Shown: positions 22,510 through 42,421 of the stretch, one piece after another
How the letters are laid out: each line of letters opens with the position of its first letter
Position numbering within the stretch: position 1 is the stretch's first letter
Translations under genes and position numbers: made by a program
NCBI RefSeq assembly: GCF_025151045.1
Contig: NZ_CP102285.1
Span: 868,001 to 932,000, forward strand
Length of the DNA stretch: 64,000 nt
Reading direction: 5' to 3'
DNA from: Parabacteroides johnsonii DSM 18315
Lineage (GTDB): Bacteria; Bacteroidota; Bacteroidia; Bacteroidales; Tannerellaceae
The notes under the pieces: generated by a model
The model's input: the letters and a program-made list of their open reading frames with translations, nothing else
Database searches by the model: none
What the model was told of the DNA's origin: nothing

Positions 22510-23853
22510 ATGAAACCCATGAAATTAACATCTTTGATGGTGATGCTTCTGGTAGGCTTCAGTGCCGCAGCCCAGGAGGAGTTCTTTGATGATGTGTATT
22601 TCTCTTCCAGCAAAAAAGATAAAAAAGAAAAAACAGAAGAGAAGGTCATACAGCCTAAAGAGGATGCTGAACGTACTACGATGACGTCTACATACAGCAC
22701 CAGCAAAAGAAAAAGTGCTGTGTCTGATGAAGAACGCGATGTAGATGAATATAACCGTCGCTATACTTCGATTGACGTGGAGGAGCCGTATGATGAAGAT
22801 TCAGACGGTGAAGTCTTGGCCGAATATAACGACGATATGGATAATGAAAAAACAGTCGCTTCCGATTCTAAAAAGGAACGTCGTTCGGATACGGAATATA
22901 CCGAGCGTATCATCCGTTACCATTCGCCGAGCAAGATTACGATTGCCGGAGCAGACCAAGTCGATCTGTATCTGAGTGACGGATATTATGCTTATGGCTA
23001 CGATACGGATTATTCCAACGGCAGTACCAACGTAAGTGTCAATGTGAACATCGGCAATGGCTGGGGCGGTTACTATGATCCGTGGTACAGCGGATGGTAT
23101 GGTGGCTGGTACGGCGGTTGGTATGATCCCTGGATTTACAGCCCGGCCCGCTATTGGGGCTACGGTCCATCCTTCGGTTTCGGCTGGGGTTGGGGTGGTT
23201 TCTATGCCGGCTACTGGGGCCCGTCTTGGGGCTGGGGTCCGAGTTATTGGGGACCTGGTTATTGGGGTGGTGGCTACTGGGGACATCATCACCATCATTA
23301 TGTTTCACCGTATAGACATAATTATATAGGATCACGTACATCTGCCGGACAGAGATCTTCTTATGCAAGTGCAAGTGGGAGATCACGTACTTCGGTTGGA
23401 AGTAGAACATCTGCAGGAAGCAGGAGTGCAACATCTTTGAGAAGTAGTAGTGCTGCACGAAGTCGTACAAGTACGGGAGTAAATGGACGTACGAGTACAG
23501 GTGTAAGAAATCGAACAAGTGTAGGGACTTCTGCACGTATGTCTTCTTCGACACGTTCTTCTGCAGTAACAGGAGGACGCACGCGGATATCTCGTGAAAG
23601 TGCAGTTAGTTCGGGTGCTTCTCGTTCTTCGAATCGCCAATATACGGCACCGGCAAGAAGTAGTAGTTCTTCCCGTTCTTATAATAATTATAGTGGGAAT
23701 TCTCAACGCAGTAGTAGCTCTTTTTCTCCTTCAAGAAGTAGTAGCGGTAGCCGGAGTTCATTTGGAACATCTTCGTCAGGAGGCTCCCGTTCATCAGGAG
23801 GTAGCTATGGTGGCGGAGGAAGCCGTTCCAGTGGTGGTGGACGCAGCAGATAG
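22510..23853 (+). CDS. Secreted low-complexity protein: acidic, Gly/Trp/Tyr-rich, then Ser/Arg-rich
   Basis: The 447-residue protein has a signal peptide (LMVMLLVGFSAAAQ). A charged segment (about 25-140) is rich in Lys, Glu and Asp, and a compact stretch (about 140-175) follows. A Gly/Trp/Tyr block (about 185-265) has GWYGGWYGG-like repeats and a run of five His near residue 262. The rest is Ser/Arg/Thr/Gly-rich, with repeats such as SRTSAG and a Gly-rich tail. Bacteroidales have similar low-complexity exported proteins, but I know no function. Aromatic-Gly blocks and Arg/Ser tails suggest adhesion to glycans, DNA or itself. Codon use becomes AT-richer after about 23330. A GGAGA Shine-Dalgarno supports the start at 22510. 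Confidence 0.75.
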   Translation: MKPMKLTSLMVMLLVGFSAAAQEEFFDDVYFSSSKKDKKEKTEEKVIQPKEDAERTTMTSTYSTSKRKSAVSDEERDVDEYNRRYTSIDVEEPYDEDSDGEVLAEYNDDMDNEKTVASDSKKERRSDTEYTERIIRYHSPSKITIAGADQVDLYLSDGYYAYGYDTDYSNGSTNVSVNVNIGNGWGGYYDPWYSGWYGGWYGGWYDPWIYSPARYWGYGPSFGFGWGWGGFYAGYWGPSWGWGPSYWGPGYWGGGYWGHHHHHYVSPYRHNYIGSRTSAGQRSSYASASGRSRTSVGSRTSAGSRSATSLRSSSAARSRTSTGVNGRTSTGVRNRTSVGTSARMSSSTRSSAVTGGRTRISRESAVSSGASRSSNRQYTAPARSSSSSRSYNNYSGNSQRSSSSFSPSRSSSGSRSSFGTSSSGGSRSSGGSYGGGGSRSSGGGRSR

Positions 23854-36846: not shown

Positions 36847-37620
36847 TTATTCGATATTCTTCCTGATCTTTGTCAGGTATTCCTTCATTCCTTCCGAATC
36901 TTTGTCTTTGATGATCCCCTGTAAAATGTCCAGTTCCTCCTGGATGCGTGCAATCTGGTGAGGCGTGCGCGGGTTGAAAAGGATCTCCGTCAATAGATAA
37001 TCATCTTCGGAAAGCAGGCCTCTGGCGATCTTCATGTGACGTTTGAAGGTCGTACCCGGAGCATCCTGGTGTTTCATCGTGGCAGCGAACACCATTGTGG
37101 ATGCAAACGGAATGCCGAGCGAGTAAGCCACTACTTTGTCATGTTCCTCAAAAGTATATTCGCAGATATGCAGGCGCAGGCTGGAATAGATATCTTTGAA
37201 GAATATTTTTCCCAGATGATCCCCTTCGGAAATGATGATCGTATTTTCTTTTTCCAGTTGTCCCAGGTTGGCGAATGTCGGACCAAACATCGGGTGGGTA
37301 GAAACATACGGGAAGCCACATGTCTCGTAAAATTCTTTCAGGTGCGTCTTGACTGATGCGATATCCGAGATGATGCAGTAGGGTTGCAGGTAAGGCATGA
37401 CACTTTTGAACGCTTCGATCGTATAGCTTAACGTCACGCAGTTGATGACTAATTCTGGCTTGAACTCGGCTACTTCTTCCGGCTTTTGCAGGCGAAGGGC
37501 GTTATAAATGAAACGCATCCGCTTCGGATCGTTTTCAAGTACGGCCACTTCATGTTCAAAACTAAGCAAATCGGTGAAGAAAGATCCCATCTTCCCTGCA
37601 CCCAATATCAGTATTTTCAT
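36847..37620 (-). CDS. tyrA: Prephenate dehydrogenase
   Basis: The 257-residue enzyme has an N-terminal NAD-binding Rossmann motif (MKILILGAGKMGSFF) and the TyrA-type segments VINCVTLSYTIEAF, SDIASVKTHL and VSTHPMFGPTFANL. The helical C-terminal domain ends at about 255. It converts prephenate to 4-hydroxyphenylpyruvate, the Tyr precursor. It is the last gene of the operon pheA, aminotransferase, DAHP synthase-chorismate mutase, tyrA. No ACT or chorismate mutase domain is attached; the mutase activity comes from the preceding gene. Confidence 0.9.
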   Translation of the reverse strand: MKILILGAGKMGSFFTDLLSFEHEVAVLENDPKRMRFIYNALRLQKPEEVAEFKPELVINCVTLSYTIEAFKSVMPYLQPYCIISDIASVKTHLKEFYETCGFPYVSTHPMFGPTFANLGQLEKENTIIISEGDHLGKIFFKDIYSSLRLHICEYTFEEHDKVVAYSLGIPFASTMVFAATMKHQDAPGTTFKRHMKIARGLLSEDDYLLTEILFNPRTPHQIARIQEELDILQGIIKDKDSEGMKEYLTKIRKNIE

Positions 37621-37659
37621 TATCAATAATTGTTTAATGTACTAATGCGCCAATGAGCT

Positions 37660-37693: not shown

Positions 37694-38758
37694 TTATTGT
37701 TCATTCATGATGATCATCTGCTGACGGACGGATTCTTCATGGATTTCTTTCAGGATTTCTTTTACAAATTCCGTACTCAAATCCATCTGTTCACCCATGT
37801 TAGAACGCTTTTCCAGGATCTCGCTGTAGCGTGGTGATTGCAGGATCGGCATATTGTGTTCTTTCTTATACACACCGATCTCGCGGGAGATGCGCATACG
37901 TTTAGCCAACAACTCCAATAATTGTTCGTCGATACCGTCGATCTGGCGGCGGAGTTCGGCCAGGTTTTCCGTTGTCTGGTTGGAGTCGCGGATAACCAGT
38001 AAATTCAGAACGTAATCCAATACATCTGGGGTGATCTGCTGTGAAGCATCGCTCCAGGCGCAATCGGGGTTACAGTGCGATTCGATGATCAAGCCGTCGA
38101 AACTCAAATCCATAGCCTGCTGGCAGAGGGGAGCGACTAATTCGCGTTTGCCTCCGATATGGCTCGGATCGCAGAAGATCGGCAGGTTCGGCATACGGCG
38201 GCGAAGCTCGATAGGAATATGCCAGAGCGGGAGGTTGCGGTACATCTTCTTATCGTAAGAACTGAAACCGCGATGGATAGCGCCCAAGCGACGGATACCG
38301 GCTCCATAGAGACGTTGGAAAGCGCCGATCCACAACTCTAAATCCGGGTTAACCGGGTTCTTGATCAGAACCGGAATATCCACGCCTTTCAATGCATCTG
38401 CAATTTCCTGTACGGCAAATGGGTTAACCGTTGTACGGGCACCGATCCACAACACGTCGATCCCTGCTTTCAATGCTTCGAATACATGGTCTTTCGTTGC
38501 CACTTCGGTAGCCACGTACATGCCTGTTTCCTTTTTTACCCGTTTCAACCATTGCAAGCCTTCTGCACCGATTCCTTCGAATCCACCGGGTTTAGTACGA
38601 GGTTTCCAGATTCCTGCGCGGAACAGCTTGATGCCTTTATCGGCGATTCCTTTGGCTGTTTCCATTACCTGCTCTTCTGTCTCTGCGCTACACGGACCGG
38701 CGATTACAACAGGGCGCTGCGGGTCTATGCCGGGTAACATGATTGATTCTAATTCCAT
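37694..38758 (-). CDS. aroF: Bifunctional DAHP synthase / chorismate mutase
   Basis: The 354-residue fusion has an N-terminal DAHP synthase of the small KDPG-aldolase-like type (about 1-260: VVIAGPCSAETEEQV, GIWKPRTKPGGFEG, FCDPSHIGGKRE, IESHCNPD). It is joined to a C-terminal AroQ-type chorismate mutase (about 265-354: LAELRRQIDGIDEQLLELLAKRMRISREIGVYK). It thus catalyses the first step of the shikimate pathway and the first step of the Phe/Tyr branch. A mutase fused to this DAHP synthase often passes feedback from prephenate. It is the third gene of the aromatic operon. The symbol is a family-level choice. Confidence 0.92.
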   Translation of the reverse strand: MELESIMLPGIDPQRPVVIAGPCSAETEEQVMETAKGIADKGIKLFRAGIWKPRTKPGGFEGIGAEGLQWLKRVKKETGMYVATEVATKDHVFEALKAGIDVLWIGARTTVNPFAVQEIADALKGVDIPVLIKNPVNPDLELWIGAFQRLYGAGIRRLGAIHRGFSSYDKKMYRNLPLWHIPIELRRRMPNLPIFCDPSHIGGKRELVAPLCQQAMDLSFDGLIIESHCNPDCAWSDASQQITPDVLDYVLNLLVIRDSNQTTENLAELRRQIDGIDEQLLELLAKRMRISREIGVYKKEHNMPILQSPRYSEILEKRSNMGEQMDLSTEFVKEILKEIHEESVRQQMIIMNEQ

Positions 38759-38793: not shown

Positions 38794-39981
38794 TTAATTG
38801 TTAATCGAGACAATTCGTCGAAGCGCTTCCTCTAGGGTTTCGTTTTTGCAACAGAGCGAGATGCGGATGTATCGTTCGCCCTGGCTGCCGAATATAAATC
38901 CCGGTGTCAGGAAAACATTGGCTTCGTACAGAACTTTGTCGGCTATCGCTTCGCTGCCTTTTGCTTCGACGGGGATTTTTCCCCAGAGGAACATACCTAC
39001 CTGCTTTTCGTCATATTTGCATCCCAACGTGCGCATGATCTTTCCGGCGAGGTCGCGGCGACTGCGGTATACCCGGTTCATATTGTCATACCATTCCTTC
39101 GGGGCGCTCAATGCTTCGACGGCTGCGTGCTGCATCGGCTTGAACTGTCCGGAGTCGATATTGCTTTTCACTTTCAGGACCCACTGTACGAATTGAGCAT
39201 TGGAGGCAAGCATCGCCATACGCCAACCCGGCATATTGTGGGCCTTACTCATGGAGTTCATTTCGATACAGATGTCTTTGGCTCCCGGTACGGACAGGAT
39301 ACTTAACGGATGCTCGTTCAGGATGAAGCTATATGGGTTGTCGTTACAGATAATAATCCCATACTTTTTTCCGAAAGCGACCAACTTTTCGTATAGTTCC
39401 ATGCTGGCATTGGCTCCTGTCGGCATATTCGGGTAGTTGGTCCACATCAACTTGACATTCGACAAATCCATTTTTTCCAGCTCTTCGAAGTCCGGTTGCC
39501 AACCCAATTCTTCTTTCAGTTCGTAAGGGATCAGATTGGCCTCAACCAGTTTGCTTACTGAACTATAGGTCGGATAGCCGGGGTTGGGAACCAAAACTCC
39601 GTCGCCTGGATTCAGGAATGCCAGCGAGATATGCAGGATTCCCTCTTTGGAACCGATCAGCGGCTGGATCTCCGTTTTTGGATCGAGGTCTACGTCATAC
39701 CATTTTTTATACCAGTCGGCGAAGCCTTTACGCAGTTCAGGAATACCTATATACGGCTGGTAACCATGTTCGTTCGGCTGACGGGCATGTTCGCACAATG
39801 TCTCGATTGTCTGCTGCGAAGGAGGAAGATCGGGACTGCCCACACCGAGGTTGATCACGTTTTTGCCTGCGGCATTCATTTCGGCTACTTCTTTCAGTTT
39901 CCTGGAAAAGTAGTATTCTTGTACGCTACCTACGCGGTTAGCGGGTGTAATTGTTTTACACACTTTGTTTTCCTTCTGCAT
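38794..39981 (-). CDS. Class I/II aminotransferase (aromatic/prephenate type likely)
   Basis: The 395-residue PLP enzyme of fold type I has landmarks NLGVGSPDLPPSQQTIE, VPNPGYPTYSS, MWTNYPNMPTGA, ICNDNPYSFI and the PLP-Lys region EMNSMSKAHNMPGWRMAML (Lys in SMSK). It overlaps pheA by 26 bp and precedes the DAHP synthase gene. This position points to transamination of phenylpyruvate and 4-hydroxyphenylpyruvate, or of prephenate. Relatives in databases are often named LL-diaminopimelate or aspartate aminotransferases, so the substrate assignment rests on context. Confidence 0.85.
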   Translation of the reverse strand: MQKENKVCKTITPANRVGSVQEYYFSRKLKEVAEMNAAGKNVINLGVGSPDLPPSQQTIETLCEHARQPNEHGYQPYIGIPELRKGFADWYKKWYDVDLDPKTEIQPLIGSKEGILHISLAFLNPGDGVLVPNPGYPTYSSVSKLVEANLIPYELKEELGWQPDFEELEKMDLSNVKLMWTNYPNMPTGANASMELYEKLVAFGKKYGIIICNDNPYSFILNEHPLSILSVPGAKDICIEMNSMSKAHNMPGWRMAMLASNAQFVQWVLKVKSNIDSGQFKPMQHAAVEALSAPKEWYDNMNRVYRSRRDLAGKIMRTLGCKYDEKQVGMFLWGKIPVEAKGSEAIADKVLYEANVFLTPGFIFGSQGERYIRISLCCKNETLEEALRRIVSINN

Positions 39982-40801
39982 ATTCGCCTAATATTTTTAA
40001 GTCTTTTGTCAACGGTCTGATGGCATCCAATGCCTGTTTGTAGCGCAGGTAATCCGTAAATGTCAGATTGATATAGAACAGATACTCCCATTCGCGGCCG
40101 ATGATCGGCAAGGATTGTATTTTGGAAAGATTCATGTCGTAGAAAGAAAGGACAGAGAGAACTTTGGAGAGGCTGCCGGCTGTGTGGGGGAGGGCGAAAA
40201 CGACTGACGCTTTGTTTTTGTCTTCACCTTTGAGCATCTCGTCTGCCGTCCACCGGTCGGCTATTGCCAGGAAGCGGGTAAAGTTTCGTTTGTTTGTCTC
40301 GATCCCTTCGGCAAGAACTTCCATGTTGTAGATCTGGGCAGCCAGTTTCCCACAGATGGCGGCGTGTCCTTTCAGTTGGTTTTCCGAAATCCACCGGGCG
40401 CTCATGGCGGTGTCTTCCTTCTCGACCACTTTTGCGTTGGGCAACGTATCGAGGAAATCGGTACATTGCATCAAGGCGATCGGGTGGGAGTTGACCTCTT
40501 TGACATCGTGGATATTGGTCCCCGGAAGTGCAACCAGCGAGTGGGAGATACGCAATTTGTATTCGCCGATAACTTGTAAACCGCTTTCACGTATCAGTTC
40601 ATGGTTTTGCAACAAGCTACCAGCAATCGTATTTTCGATCGCCATCATTCCCAGAATGGAAGGATCTTTTTTGATGGTTGAAATAACATCTCTGAATGTA
40701 TTGCAACCGATAATTTCAATCTCTTCACCTTCGAAATAATTACGGGCGGCTATGTCGTGATACGAACCGGCTATTCCCTGGATTGCTACTTTCTTCTTCA
40801 T
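39956..40801 (-). CDS. pheA: Prephenate dehydratase with ACT domain
   Basis: The 281-residue enzyme turns prephenate into phenylpyruvate. The catalytic domain (about 1-180: VAIQGIAGSYHDIAARNYF, MMAIENTIAGSLLQNHELI, and NFTRFLAIA with the Thr-Arg-Phe motif) is followed by an ACT domain (about 195-275). The ACT motif that binds Phe in other dehydratases, usually ESRP, reads QSLP here (KIQSLPIIGREW). Phe feedback on the enzyme may therefore differ. It has no chorismate mutase domain. It is the first structural gene of the aromatic operon and is preceded by a Phe/Tyr attenuator. Confidence 0.93.
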   Translation of the reverse strand: MKKKVAIQGIAGSYHDIAARNYFEGEEIEIIGCNTFRDVISTIKKDPSILGMMAIENTIAGSLLQNHELIRESGLQVIGEYKLRISHSLVALPGTNIHDVKEVNSHPIALMQCTDFLDTLPNAKVVEKEDTAMSARWISENQLKGHAAICGKLAAQIYNMEVLAEGIETNKRNFTRFLAIADRWTADEMLKGEDKNKASVVFALPHTAGSLSKVLSVLSFYDMNLSKIQSLPIIGREWEYLFYINLTFTDYLRYKQALDAIRPLTKDLKILGEYAEGKQSV

Positions 40802-40858
40802 CTTCTCTTTGTTTTTTTGTCTTTCAAATTGTCAATTGTCAATTCTCAATTGTCCATT

Positions 40859-40891
40859 AAAAAAAAAGTCCCACCGAAACCGGCAGGACTT
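40859..40891 (-). terminator. Attenuator terminator of the aromatic operon
   Basis: On the minus strand AAGTCCTGCC, loop GGTTTC and GGTGGGACTT form a 10-bp stem (two G-U pairs), followed by an unbroken run of U residues. It stands 58 bp before pheA rather than after a gene. Its 5' arm (TCCTGCC, 40888-40882) is perfectly complementary to GGCAGGA inside the end of the leader ORF (40950-40944), which gives an alternative antiterminator pairing. Confidence 0.85.
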
Positions 40892-40931
40892 CATATTTTG
40901 TTATTGATATATACATTCATTCATCAACGCT

Positions 40932-41006
40932 TTACATACAAACTCCTGCCTTCACTCTGCTAAAGTAAAAGTAATAAAAGTAATATGTAAAGCTAAATCG
41001 ATTCAT
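40932..41006 (-). CDS. Phe/Tyr-rich leader peptide of the aromatic operon
   Basis: This 24-codon ORF starts MNRFSFTYYFYYFYF and ends KAGVCM. Residues 4-15 contain five Phe and five Tyr. A purine-rich ribosome site (AAAGAGAC) lies just before the ATG at 41006. The last codons contain GGCAGGA, the antiterminator arm. A ribosome stalled on Phe or Tyr codons would leave this arm free to pair with the terminator's 5' side and allow read-through into pheA. A ribosome reaching the stop codon would cover the arm and let the terminator form. This is classical amino-acid attenuation, here fitted to an operon that makes both Phe and Tyr. Confidence 0.88.
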   Translation of the reverse strand: MNRFSFTYYFYYFYFSRVKAGVCM

Positions 41007-41033
41007 TTTGTCTCTTTGTTTTTAAATACGCAG

Positions 41034-41062
41034 CAAAAGTAACGCTTTTTTGGAAACTACAA
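41034..41062 (-). promoter_or_regulatory. Promoter of the aromatic operon leader
   Basis: On the minus strand TTG (41062-41060), an 18-bp spacer and TACTTTTG (41041-41034) match the Bacteroidetes consensus. The transcript would start near 41027, about 20 nt before the leader ATG. Confidence 0.7.
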
Positions 41063-41494: not shown

Positions 41495-42421
41495 TCAAAC
41501 CACCCGCAACCCCGCTTGCAGCGTACGCATTTCTTTTGGAATAGATTTTCGGATACTTTCGATCAAAATACCGGCGACCGAATGCCGGATAAAATCTTTG
41601 CGGGTTACCCAGACGATTTCACGTGCCGGTTTGGGGATGGCAAACGGGCGTACCAGTTCTTTCTGCTGTTCGCTTAACTGATAGGTAGCCAGCTCCGGAA
41701 TGAAAGTGACGCCGTTGCCGCTTTCTACCATACGCATAAAAGTCTCCAGACTTCCCAGACGATAAGCTGCCTGGCGGAGTTTGACTTTTTCCATTTGACA
41801 GAAGCGCATTAGTTGATCGCGGAAACAATGTCCTTCATCCAGCAACCAAAGACGTTCGTCGCTGATATCGGCAGAACGGACCATCTCTTTCTTGAACACG
41901 CTTTCGTTGCGGGCTACATAAGCATAAAACTGTTCGTAGTATAGGATATCTCCCTGTAGCTGCATCTCCGTCGGTTGGTTCGCGATGATGGCGGCGTCTA
42001 TCTCTCCGTTCAGGAGGGCTTTCGTTGTAGGAGCCGTTTGCATTTCCAGGATACGGATATCCAGATCAGGATGCTTCTCCGATACTTGCTGGAAAAAGCG
42101 GGGAAGCAGATAAGGAGCGATCGTCGGTAATACAGCGAGGCGGAACGTACCTTTCAAAGATTGCTCTTCTTCATTTACGATATCTTTAATCAGAGAAGTC
42201 TGGTAGAGGACGACGCGTGCCTGGTCGATCACCTTACGACCGGCAGGGGTAGGACAGACCGGCTGGATATTGCGGTCGAAAAGTTTCACACCCAGTTCAT
42301 CTTCCAGTTTCTGGATCATCATACTTAATGTTGGTTGGGTTACGCGGCAATGTTCTGCAGCTTTGGCAAAATGGCGATAGGTGTCTACAGCCAGGATGTA
42401 TTCGAGTTGTTGTATATTCAT
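41495..42421 (-). CDS. oxyR: OxyR, hydrogen-peroxide-sensing LysR regulator
   Basis: The 308-residue LysR-type protein has an N-terminal helix-turn-helix (FAKAAEHCRVTQPTLSMMIQKLE) and an effector domain containing the redox pair Cys199 and Cys208 in GHCFRDQLMRFC. Numbering and spacing equal those of E. coli OxyR. Peroxide forms a disulfide between the two, turning the regulator on. Dps, a common OxyR target in Bacteroides, is encoded 4.8 kb away beyond two GH127 genes. It is divergent from the first GH127 gene; the 269-bp gap carries a three-unit repeat. Confidence 0.94.
   Translation of the reverse strand: MNIQQLEYILAVDTYRHFAKAAEHCRVTQPTLSMMIQKLEDELGVKLFDRNIQPVCPTPAGRKVIDQARVVLYQTSLIKDIVNEEEQSLKGTFRLAVLPTIAPYLLPRFFQQVSEKHPDLDIRILEMQTAPTTKALLNGEIDAAIIANQPTEMQLQGDILYYEQFYAYVARNESVFKKEMVRSADISDERLWLLDEGHCFRDQLMRFCQMEKVKLRQAAYRLGSLETFMRMVESGNGVTFIPELATYQLSEQQKELVRPFAIPKPAREIVWVTRKDFIRHSVAGILIESIRKSIPKEMRTLQAGLRVV

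Follow-up and report, generated by a model that had tools for sequence, protein, structure and literature searches.

Our analysis of the window, by which we mean the whole stretch of 64,000 nucleotides, showed an aromatic operon on the minus strand. The operon had been proposed to make both Phe and Tyr, and Pfam matches agree with this, as they gave prephenate dehydratase, an aminotransferase, DAHP synthase with chorismate mutase, and prephenate dehydrogenase. A putative attenuator region extends from 41062 to 40859 on the same strand, upstream of pheA. The features identified are listed below in window positions.

41034 to 41062, minus strand: promoter, consisting of a −7 box TACTTTTG (41041-41034) and an upstream TTG (41062-41060); from the sequence.
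41006 to 40932, minus strand: leader ORF MNRFSFTYYFYYFYFSRVKAGVCM, 24 codons; from the sequence.
40962 to 40997, minus strand: regulatory codons 4-15 of the leader ORF, five Phe and five Tyr; from the sequence.
40963 to 41002, minus strand: 5′ side of the protector stem (FSFTYY and later Phe/Tyr codons); from the free-RNA fold and covariation.
40923 to 40957, minus strand: 3′ side of the protector stem, which includes the antiterminator arm; from the free-RNA fold and covariation.
40936 to 40950, minus strand: antiterminator 5′ arm GGCAGGAGTTTGTAT, within the leader ORF; from the fold (outer helix, 93.2% of alignment cells paired).
40903 to 40928, minus strand: antiterminator inner helix, 40928-40918 with 40913-40903; from the fold (63.6% of cells paired, the weakest part).
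40882 to 40896, minus strand: antiterminator 3′ arm, in common with the terminator 5′ arm; from the fold and covariation.
40859 to 40892, minus strand: intrinsic terminator with a 12-bp stem, a 4-nt loop and nine T; from the sequence (98.0% of cells paired).
39956 to 40801, minus strand: pheA, prephenate dehydratase (PF00800, 4.9e-53).
38794 to 39981, minus strand: class I/II aminotransferase (PF00155).
37694 to 38758, minus strand: DAHP synthase-chorismate mutase fusion (PF00793 and PF01817).
36847 to 37626, minus strand: tyrA, prephenate dehydrogenase (PF02153).

The leader ORF is present as the original prediction described it, with five Phe codons (4, 6, 10, 13 and 15) and five Tyr codons (8, 9, 11, 12 and 14) at codons 4-15. 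Ten of these 12 codons are Phe or Tyr codons, a cluster of candidate stall codons for the products of the downstream operon. The eight-codon Phe/Tyr run within it is the longest in the 4.75 Mb genome, the others having six or seven. A search for six-codon Phe/Tyr runs gave 20 overlapping matches in the genome, and a control pattern gave 34. Of the other Phe/Tyr runs, nine loci went to a frame check (six of them tabulated and four inspected closely), and no second leader with a terminator was found among these. Runs of five His codons were found three times in the genome, all in apparently coding stretches, and none of them is a his leader. At about 23150-23300 of the window (plus strand) there is a Gly/Tyr/Trp-rich, apparently coding stretch with a five-His run, which is not a leader.

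The −7 motif of Bacteroides promoters is TAnnTTTG, and we take TACTTTTG to be a fit to it. The promoter claimed at 41062-41034 has its −7 box. Of the 74 named loci, 72 carry the motif at most 90 nt before their leader; in the family set 39 of 59 carry it within the same distance, whereas shuffled versions of this set gave 8%. A sigma-70 scan of the region gave 10 sites, against 10.1 in shuffles.

The perfect complementarity noticed earlier between GGCAGGA (40950-40944) and the 5′ arm of the terminator (TCCTGCC, 40888-40882) was recovered, and the predicted fold widens it to 14 of 15 positions including G-U pairs (40950-40936 with 40896-40882). The terminator hairpin with its T-tract, which had been placed at 40891-40859 before pheA, has a stem in which 40892-40881 pairs with 40876-40865, and its nine T lie at 40867-40859. 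Covariation, given below, supports it.

We folded the leader with an assumed start site and an assumed ribosome footprint, and pairing across the ribosome was allowed. In this model the free leader RNA folds as protector plus terminator. The antiterminator wins when the ribosome is placed at codons 8, 9 or 12, and the terminator wins when it is placed at codons 16, 18, 20, 22, 24 or 25. At codon 15 the full-length fold is the terminator, and the antiterminator forms when only the 5′ arm of the terminator has been made. The Phe/Tyr codons themselves form the protector hairpin, a point missed in the original prediction, so the classical three-state layout is complete. A reading with no protector stem was dropped after the folding showed this hairpin. 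The stem features of leader-peptide attenuators are thus present in the sequence and the predicted fold, namely a terminator between ORF and gene, a mutually exclusive antiterminator and a protector. Over 58 families, the z score of the leader fold averaged −2.1 and was below −1 in 43.

The PheA protein of the window shows 98% identity to three Parabacteroides records. Among the best 80 of 252 named relatives, 73 have a leader (at least seven Phe/Tyr in 12 codons) together with a terminator-like hairpin before pheA. In four of the seven others the contig ends in this region, and a run of N interrupts a fifth; the last two (L068 and L071) have an aminotransferase after pheA, yet no leader.

Our PheA searches gave 87 matches in 296 genomes of the class, 88 in 198 genomes of the order and 172 in 198 genomes of the phylum. 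The DNA before pheA was taken from 86 of the 87 class match genomes and 74 of the 88 order match genomes. For the phylum search, automatic loci covered 30 of the 172 matches; 11 of these came from new genomes and were examined, two of them outside the class. Upstream DNA was read for 154 loci (L102-L255), the window's own genome included. With one locus per family code, 55 of 66 families have a Phe/Tyr leader with a terminator. The opposite strand gave this combination in 2 of 66, and three shuffles gave it in 3, 1 and 0. When at least seven Phe/Tyr were required, the count was 49 of 66, against 0 on the opposite strand and 0, 0 and 0 in the shuffles. Counting any locus of a family, it was 59 of 66. 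The only two loci examined outside the class (L281 and L290, the best-scoring there) have Phe/Tyr leaders and hairpins when read by eye. The short Phe/Tyr ORF is therefore conserved, which had been named as a check on the prediction: it was observed in 73 of the 80 named relatives and in 55 families out of 66. With only 2 of 66 on the opposite strand, the occurrence of the leader and terminator before pheA is not due to chance.

The covariation of the terminator, antiterminator and protector was assessed in an alignment of 74 sequences (A1), which leaves out L015, L030, L066 and L078 (contig ends), L053 (run of N), and L068 and L071 (no leader). Because the structures were taken from the fold of the window itself, they have an advantage over the slid versions, and the shuffles ignore relatedness. 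In the terminator 98.0% of cells were paired, against 37-63% in slid controls, and 7 of 12 pairs had two-sided changes. In the antiterminator 81.7% of cells were paired (outer helix 93.2%, inner helix 63.6%), against 38-44% in slid controls, and 15 of 24 pairs had two-sided changes. Some slid versions have at least as many two-sided cells (up to 58) as its 52, a number that was also attained in 5 of 500 shuffles. In the protector 81.9% of cells were paired (92.7% and 96.5% in the core helices, between 29.2% and 93.2% in the remaining ones), against 46-51% in slid controls. Two-sided changes were found in 17 of its 38 pairs and in 97 cells, against 57.4 cells in shuffles; one slid version also has 17 two-sided pairs, and the protector's number of pair types was attained in 61 of 500 shuffles.

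T-boxes occupy this place in many Firmicutes, and another sensor of tRNA or of a metabolite (a T-box or a riboswitch) beside an incidental ORF is thereby a conceivable alternative. It is extremely unlikely here, as the conserved part consists of the ORF and three competing stems. In addition, a search with the 4227 Rfam models, which we take to include the T-box and leader families, gave 0 matches at gathering score across the 64 kb window.

An alignment-free test was then applied to one locus from each of 59 families, in which the region after the last Phe/Tyr codon was scored against terminator arms. The mean score of own arm with own terminator was 20.4, against 14.5 with foreign ones (sd 0.39; maximum 16.1 in 2000 permutations). 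The own arm beat all 58 foreign arms in just 15 of the 59 families, and in two families 57 of the 58 foreign arms matched as well as the own arm. The competing stems thus covary among the 74 sequences and the arm tracks its own terminator over the 59 families, in line with the covarying alternative stems that the prediction had called for.

In 48 of the 59 families, the distance from the last Phe/Tyr codon to the start of the antiterminator arm is 7-14 nt (quartiles over the 59 are 9, 11 and 12, extremes 1 and 33 nt). Shuffled arm regions gave this spacing in 12.5 of 59 on average and in 22 at most (200 rounds). The position of the arm relative to the end of the ORF was far more variable (quartiles −22, −16 and −1). 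Given the size of a ribosome's footprint, the codon-to-arm distance fits a ribosome that would be halted on the last regulatory codon and would just leave the arm free. The placement of stall codons expected of a leader-peptide attenuator was accordingly found, both in the spacing of the 48 families and in the modelled states.

These results bear on a second alternative, which holds that a plain terminator follows a small gene whose 24-residue peptide or short RNA acts in trans, with pheA transcribed from another promoter. A trans role has been reported for the leader peptide peTrpL, and a sigma-70-like site (9 of 12) occurs at 40856, yet such sites are no commoner than in shuffles. The tail of the peptide is unconserved, with a frame shift in L065 and L072 and an earlier end of the ORF in L062 and L070, whereas the nucleotides of the arm are largely kept. 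The covariation and the codon-to-arm spacing also indicate a switch in cis, and we regard the trans explanation as very improbable.

We then compared the leader codons with the genes behind them in 151 usable loci; L212, which comes from the genome of L111, and L214 and L229, whose upstream regions are short, were left out. Of these loci, 141 were of the operon type, with an aminotransferase and/or DAHP synthase match after pheA, and 10 were without. A leader was detected in 119 of the 141, each with both Tyr (1 to 7 codons) and Phe (at least two) in its 12-codon core. The scan found no leader in the other 22 (eight loci in f17, four in f20, three in f21, two each in f2 and f66, and one each in f5, f58 and f30). 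Some of these are misses of the scan, as Phe/Tyr runs are present in the f2 loci L106 and L107, and f21 has a shorter core; others seem to be truly without a leader. The f21 loci L116, L117 and L157 have shorter leaders with the common core TYFWFYP (Tyr, Phe, Trp), before pheA operons with strong hairpins.

Where pheA stands without aminotransferase or DAHP synthase, leaders were found in 4 of the 10 loci (L149, L152, L231 and L242, from four families), with Tyr counts of 0, 0, 1 and 0. One of just these four, L231, has a weak arm and the single Tyr. No leader was found at the remaining six, including L176, in which tyrA adjoins pheA. The absence of Tyr differs between lone-pheA and operon-type leaders with a Fisher p of 1.3e-5 by locus, and by family it is 3 of 4 against 0 of 56.

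The genomes of the four lone-pheA leaders have Phe+Tyr leaders before their other aromatic genes: before tyrA-DAHP synthase (L257/L270), before tyrA (L261), before aminotransferase-DAHP synthase-tyrA (L268), and, at L260, two in a row before an aminotransferase with tyrA and DAHP synthase behind it. Among the six genomes with a leaderless pheA, three have Phe+Tyr leaders elsewhere, at L267 and L269 (aminotransferase-DAHP synthase-tyrA) and L272 (DAHP synthase). In the other three (L273-L275) no Phe/Tyr leader with a terminator was found before the other aromatic genes. These contents indicate that Tyr codons accompany the shared and Tyr-branch genes and not pheA alone. The near-loss of Tyr before a lone pheA, together with the Phe+Tyr leaders before other aromatic genes of these genomes, is the best evidence in the sequences that the leader would read both amino acids.

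In L272, the DAHP synthase apart from pheA has its own leader MNWHKAYFFYYSPSRD at 1329-1379 of the reversed strand, and a terminator-like hairpin comes after it. Before DAHP synthase in L273 (1163-1306) and L275 (1173-1304) there are short ORFs whose last residues are FYWYC and FYYWYC, with no clear terminator after them.

A third alternative is an attenuator that reads Phe only, or translation speed in general, in which the Tyr codons are present just because the protector stem calls for U/A-rich codons to pair. The protector in the fold is indeed made up of Phe and Tyr codons, and both suit U-A and U-G pairing. However, the lone-pheA leaders retain the U-rich Phe codons and nearly drop Tyr, whereas all 119 operon-type leaders have it. 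The alternation of Phe and Tyr also exceeds chance, with 256 changes against 221 expected (sd 9.5; p 0.0005, 2000 permutations, 56 families). We therefore consider the Phe-only explanation unlikely. Trp as a third signal was rejected as well: a Trp codon is present in 38 of the 119 leaders, and because random short ORFs would, by our judgement and not by computation, give about as many, no Trp signal is claimed.

The region is thus very probably a ribosome-mediated transcription attenuator which reads both charged tRNA-Phe and charged tRNA-Tyr. That the leader is built for both amino acids, as first proposed, is supported by the parts present in the sequence, their conservation, the covariation of three stems, the constant spacing, and the near-absence of Tyr before a lone pheA. 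In the mechanism proposed, without a ribosome the Phe/Tyr codons would fold onto the antiterminator arm as protector, and the terminator would form. When Phe or Tyr is short, a ribosome would stall among the Phe/Tyr codons and the protector would open. The freed GGCAGGAGTTTGTAT could then pair with the 5′ arm of the terminator, and RNA polymerase would read into pheA-aminotransferase-DAHP synthase/chorismate mutase-tyrA. When both amino acids are plentiful, the ribosome would get to the stop codon and cover the arm, and the terminator would stop transcription after about 165 nt. We infer the termination, the stalling, the coupling of ribosome and polymerase, and the derepression by either amino acid alone from these features. 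Judged by its sequence, the region is a complete and well-conserved attenuator of the classical kind, whose dual Phe/Tyr code tracks the genes of the operon.

Two units of leader plus terminator were found in 15 loci of 12 family codes (L122, L135, L137, L145, L153, L193, L222, L225, L243, L245, L248, L250, L252, L253 and L254). They sit about 110-390 nt upstream of pheA, and both ORFs are rich in Phe/Tyr. The second leader begins 14-43 nt past the first terminator in 14 of the 15 loci and 149 nt past it in one. A −7 box at most 90 nt upstream was found for the first leader in 10 of 15 and for the second in 0 of 15. The arms matched their own terminators with mean scores of 20.7 and 18.9, against 13.7 and 11.7 for the other terminator. 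In L245 and L248, the second unit is a poorer match to its own terminator than to the first one; in L250, the first unit matches both equally. L134 has a second Phe/Tyr run, but the scan gave no second unit. The features of the 15 loci suggest that they carry two attenuators in series on one transcript.

The pheA attenuator of E. coli and Salmonella combines competing stems with a short leader ORF that contains Phe codons, and it reads Phe only. The present leader is alike in these parts and in lying before pheA, but differs in that Phe and Tyr codons alternate and one operon makes both amino acids. The thr and ilvGMEDA attenuators of E. coli are alike in that a single leader responds to several amino acids connected with the operon behind it, although these are other than Phe/Tyr. 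The mechanism itself is of a known, classical kind. PMC1183508 names the pheA operon of E. coli and Salmonella, and also thr and ilvGMEDA of E. coli. Two leader-ORF attenuators in one leader RNA, as in the doubled relatives here, are described in part of the text on Salmonella mgtCBR (PMC3641672), where they respond to two different signals (ATP and proline), whereas both ORFs of the doubled relatives are Phe/Tyr-rich.

Table 7 of PMC1173090 (2005) gives a putative attenuator before pheA > hisHb > aroAI-beta-aroQ > tyrA in Bacteroides thetaiotaomicron, the same gene order as here. The source of that entry is a website list; the word leader is absent from the main text, and no codons or mechanism are given in the parts examined. 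PMC9723704 reports strong indications of leader-peptide attenuation upstream of amino-acid operons, and structured 5′ elements before pheA and hisG of Flavobacterium psychrophilum, the one before pheA being conserved. Its main-text parts examined give no codon content. Small ORFs in B. thetaiotaomicron 5′ UTRs resemble leader peptides according to part of PMC7366714. As stated in the main text of PMC2965389, such systems had before its Firmicutes case been shown in Proteobacteria and Actinobacteria only; Bacteroid*, pheA, phenylalanine and tyrosine do not occur in that main text, and neither Bacteroid* nor pheA occurs in the text of PMC8632094 as available. Our literature search, which covered titles and starts of abstracts of mainly open-access papers, gave no description of a Phe/Tyr leader peptide. 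Within the literature searched, there seems to be no description of the Phe/Tyr code, of how it tracks gene content, of its spread or of the doubled form. The original prediction had supposed little described work on a dual Phe/Tyr version in Bacteroidetes; this holds for the Phe/Tyr code, but not for the attenuator as such, which was tabulated in 2005 (PMC1173090) and has a counterpart in PMC9723704, as far as these sources were covered.

On balance, we favour the reading that this is an ancient aromatic attenuator of Bacteroidota, whose codons would have been rewired to the genes behind it, with Phe+Tyr before the full operon or before aminotransferase, DAHP synthase or tyrA genes and Phe alone before a lone pheA, and which would act as a sensor of either amino acid, doubled in some lineages for a steeper response. 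The predicted element would be a concrete and testable control of aromatic amino-acid synthesis by tRNA reading in a major gut phylum, and the split operons are a natural experiment that links leader codons with gene content. In transcript maps of Bacteroidota it would aid the interpretation of small ORFs and of premature 3′ ends, and it could be put to use in gut commensals as a control element responsive to Phe/Tyr.

Between the terminator and pheA (window 40827-40858) we also observed a AATTGACAATTGACAATT-like repeat with a 7-base period, with 5 overlapping matches against 0.15 expected. Among the upstream regions that were read, shorter forms are visible in L001 and L003 and none in the others. 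A LysR-type regulator gene lies in the same direction at 41495-42421 of the window (minus strand), about 430 nt upstream of the promoter.
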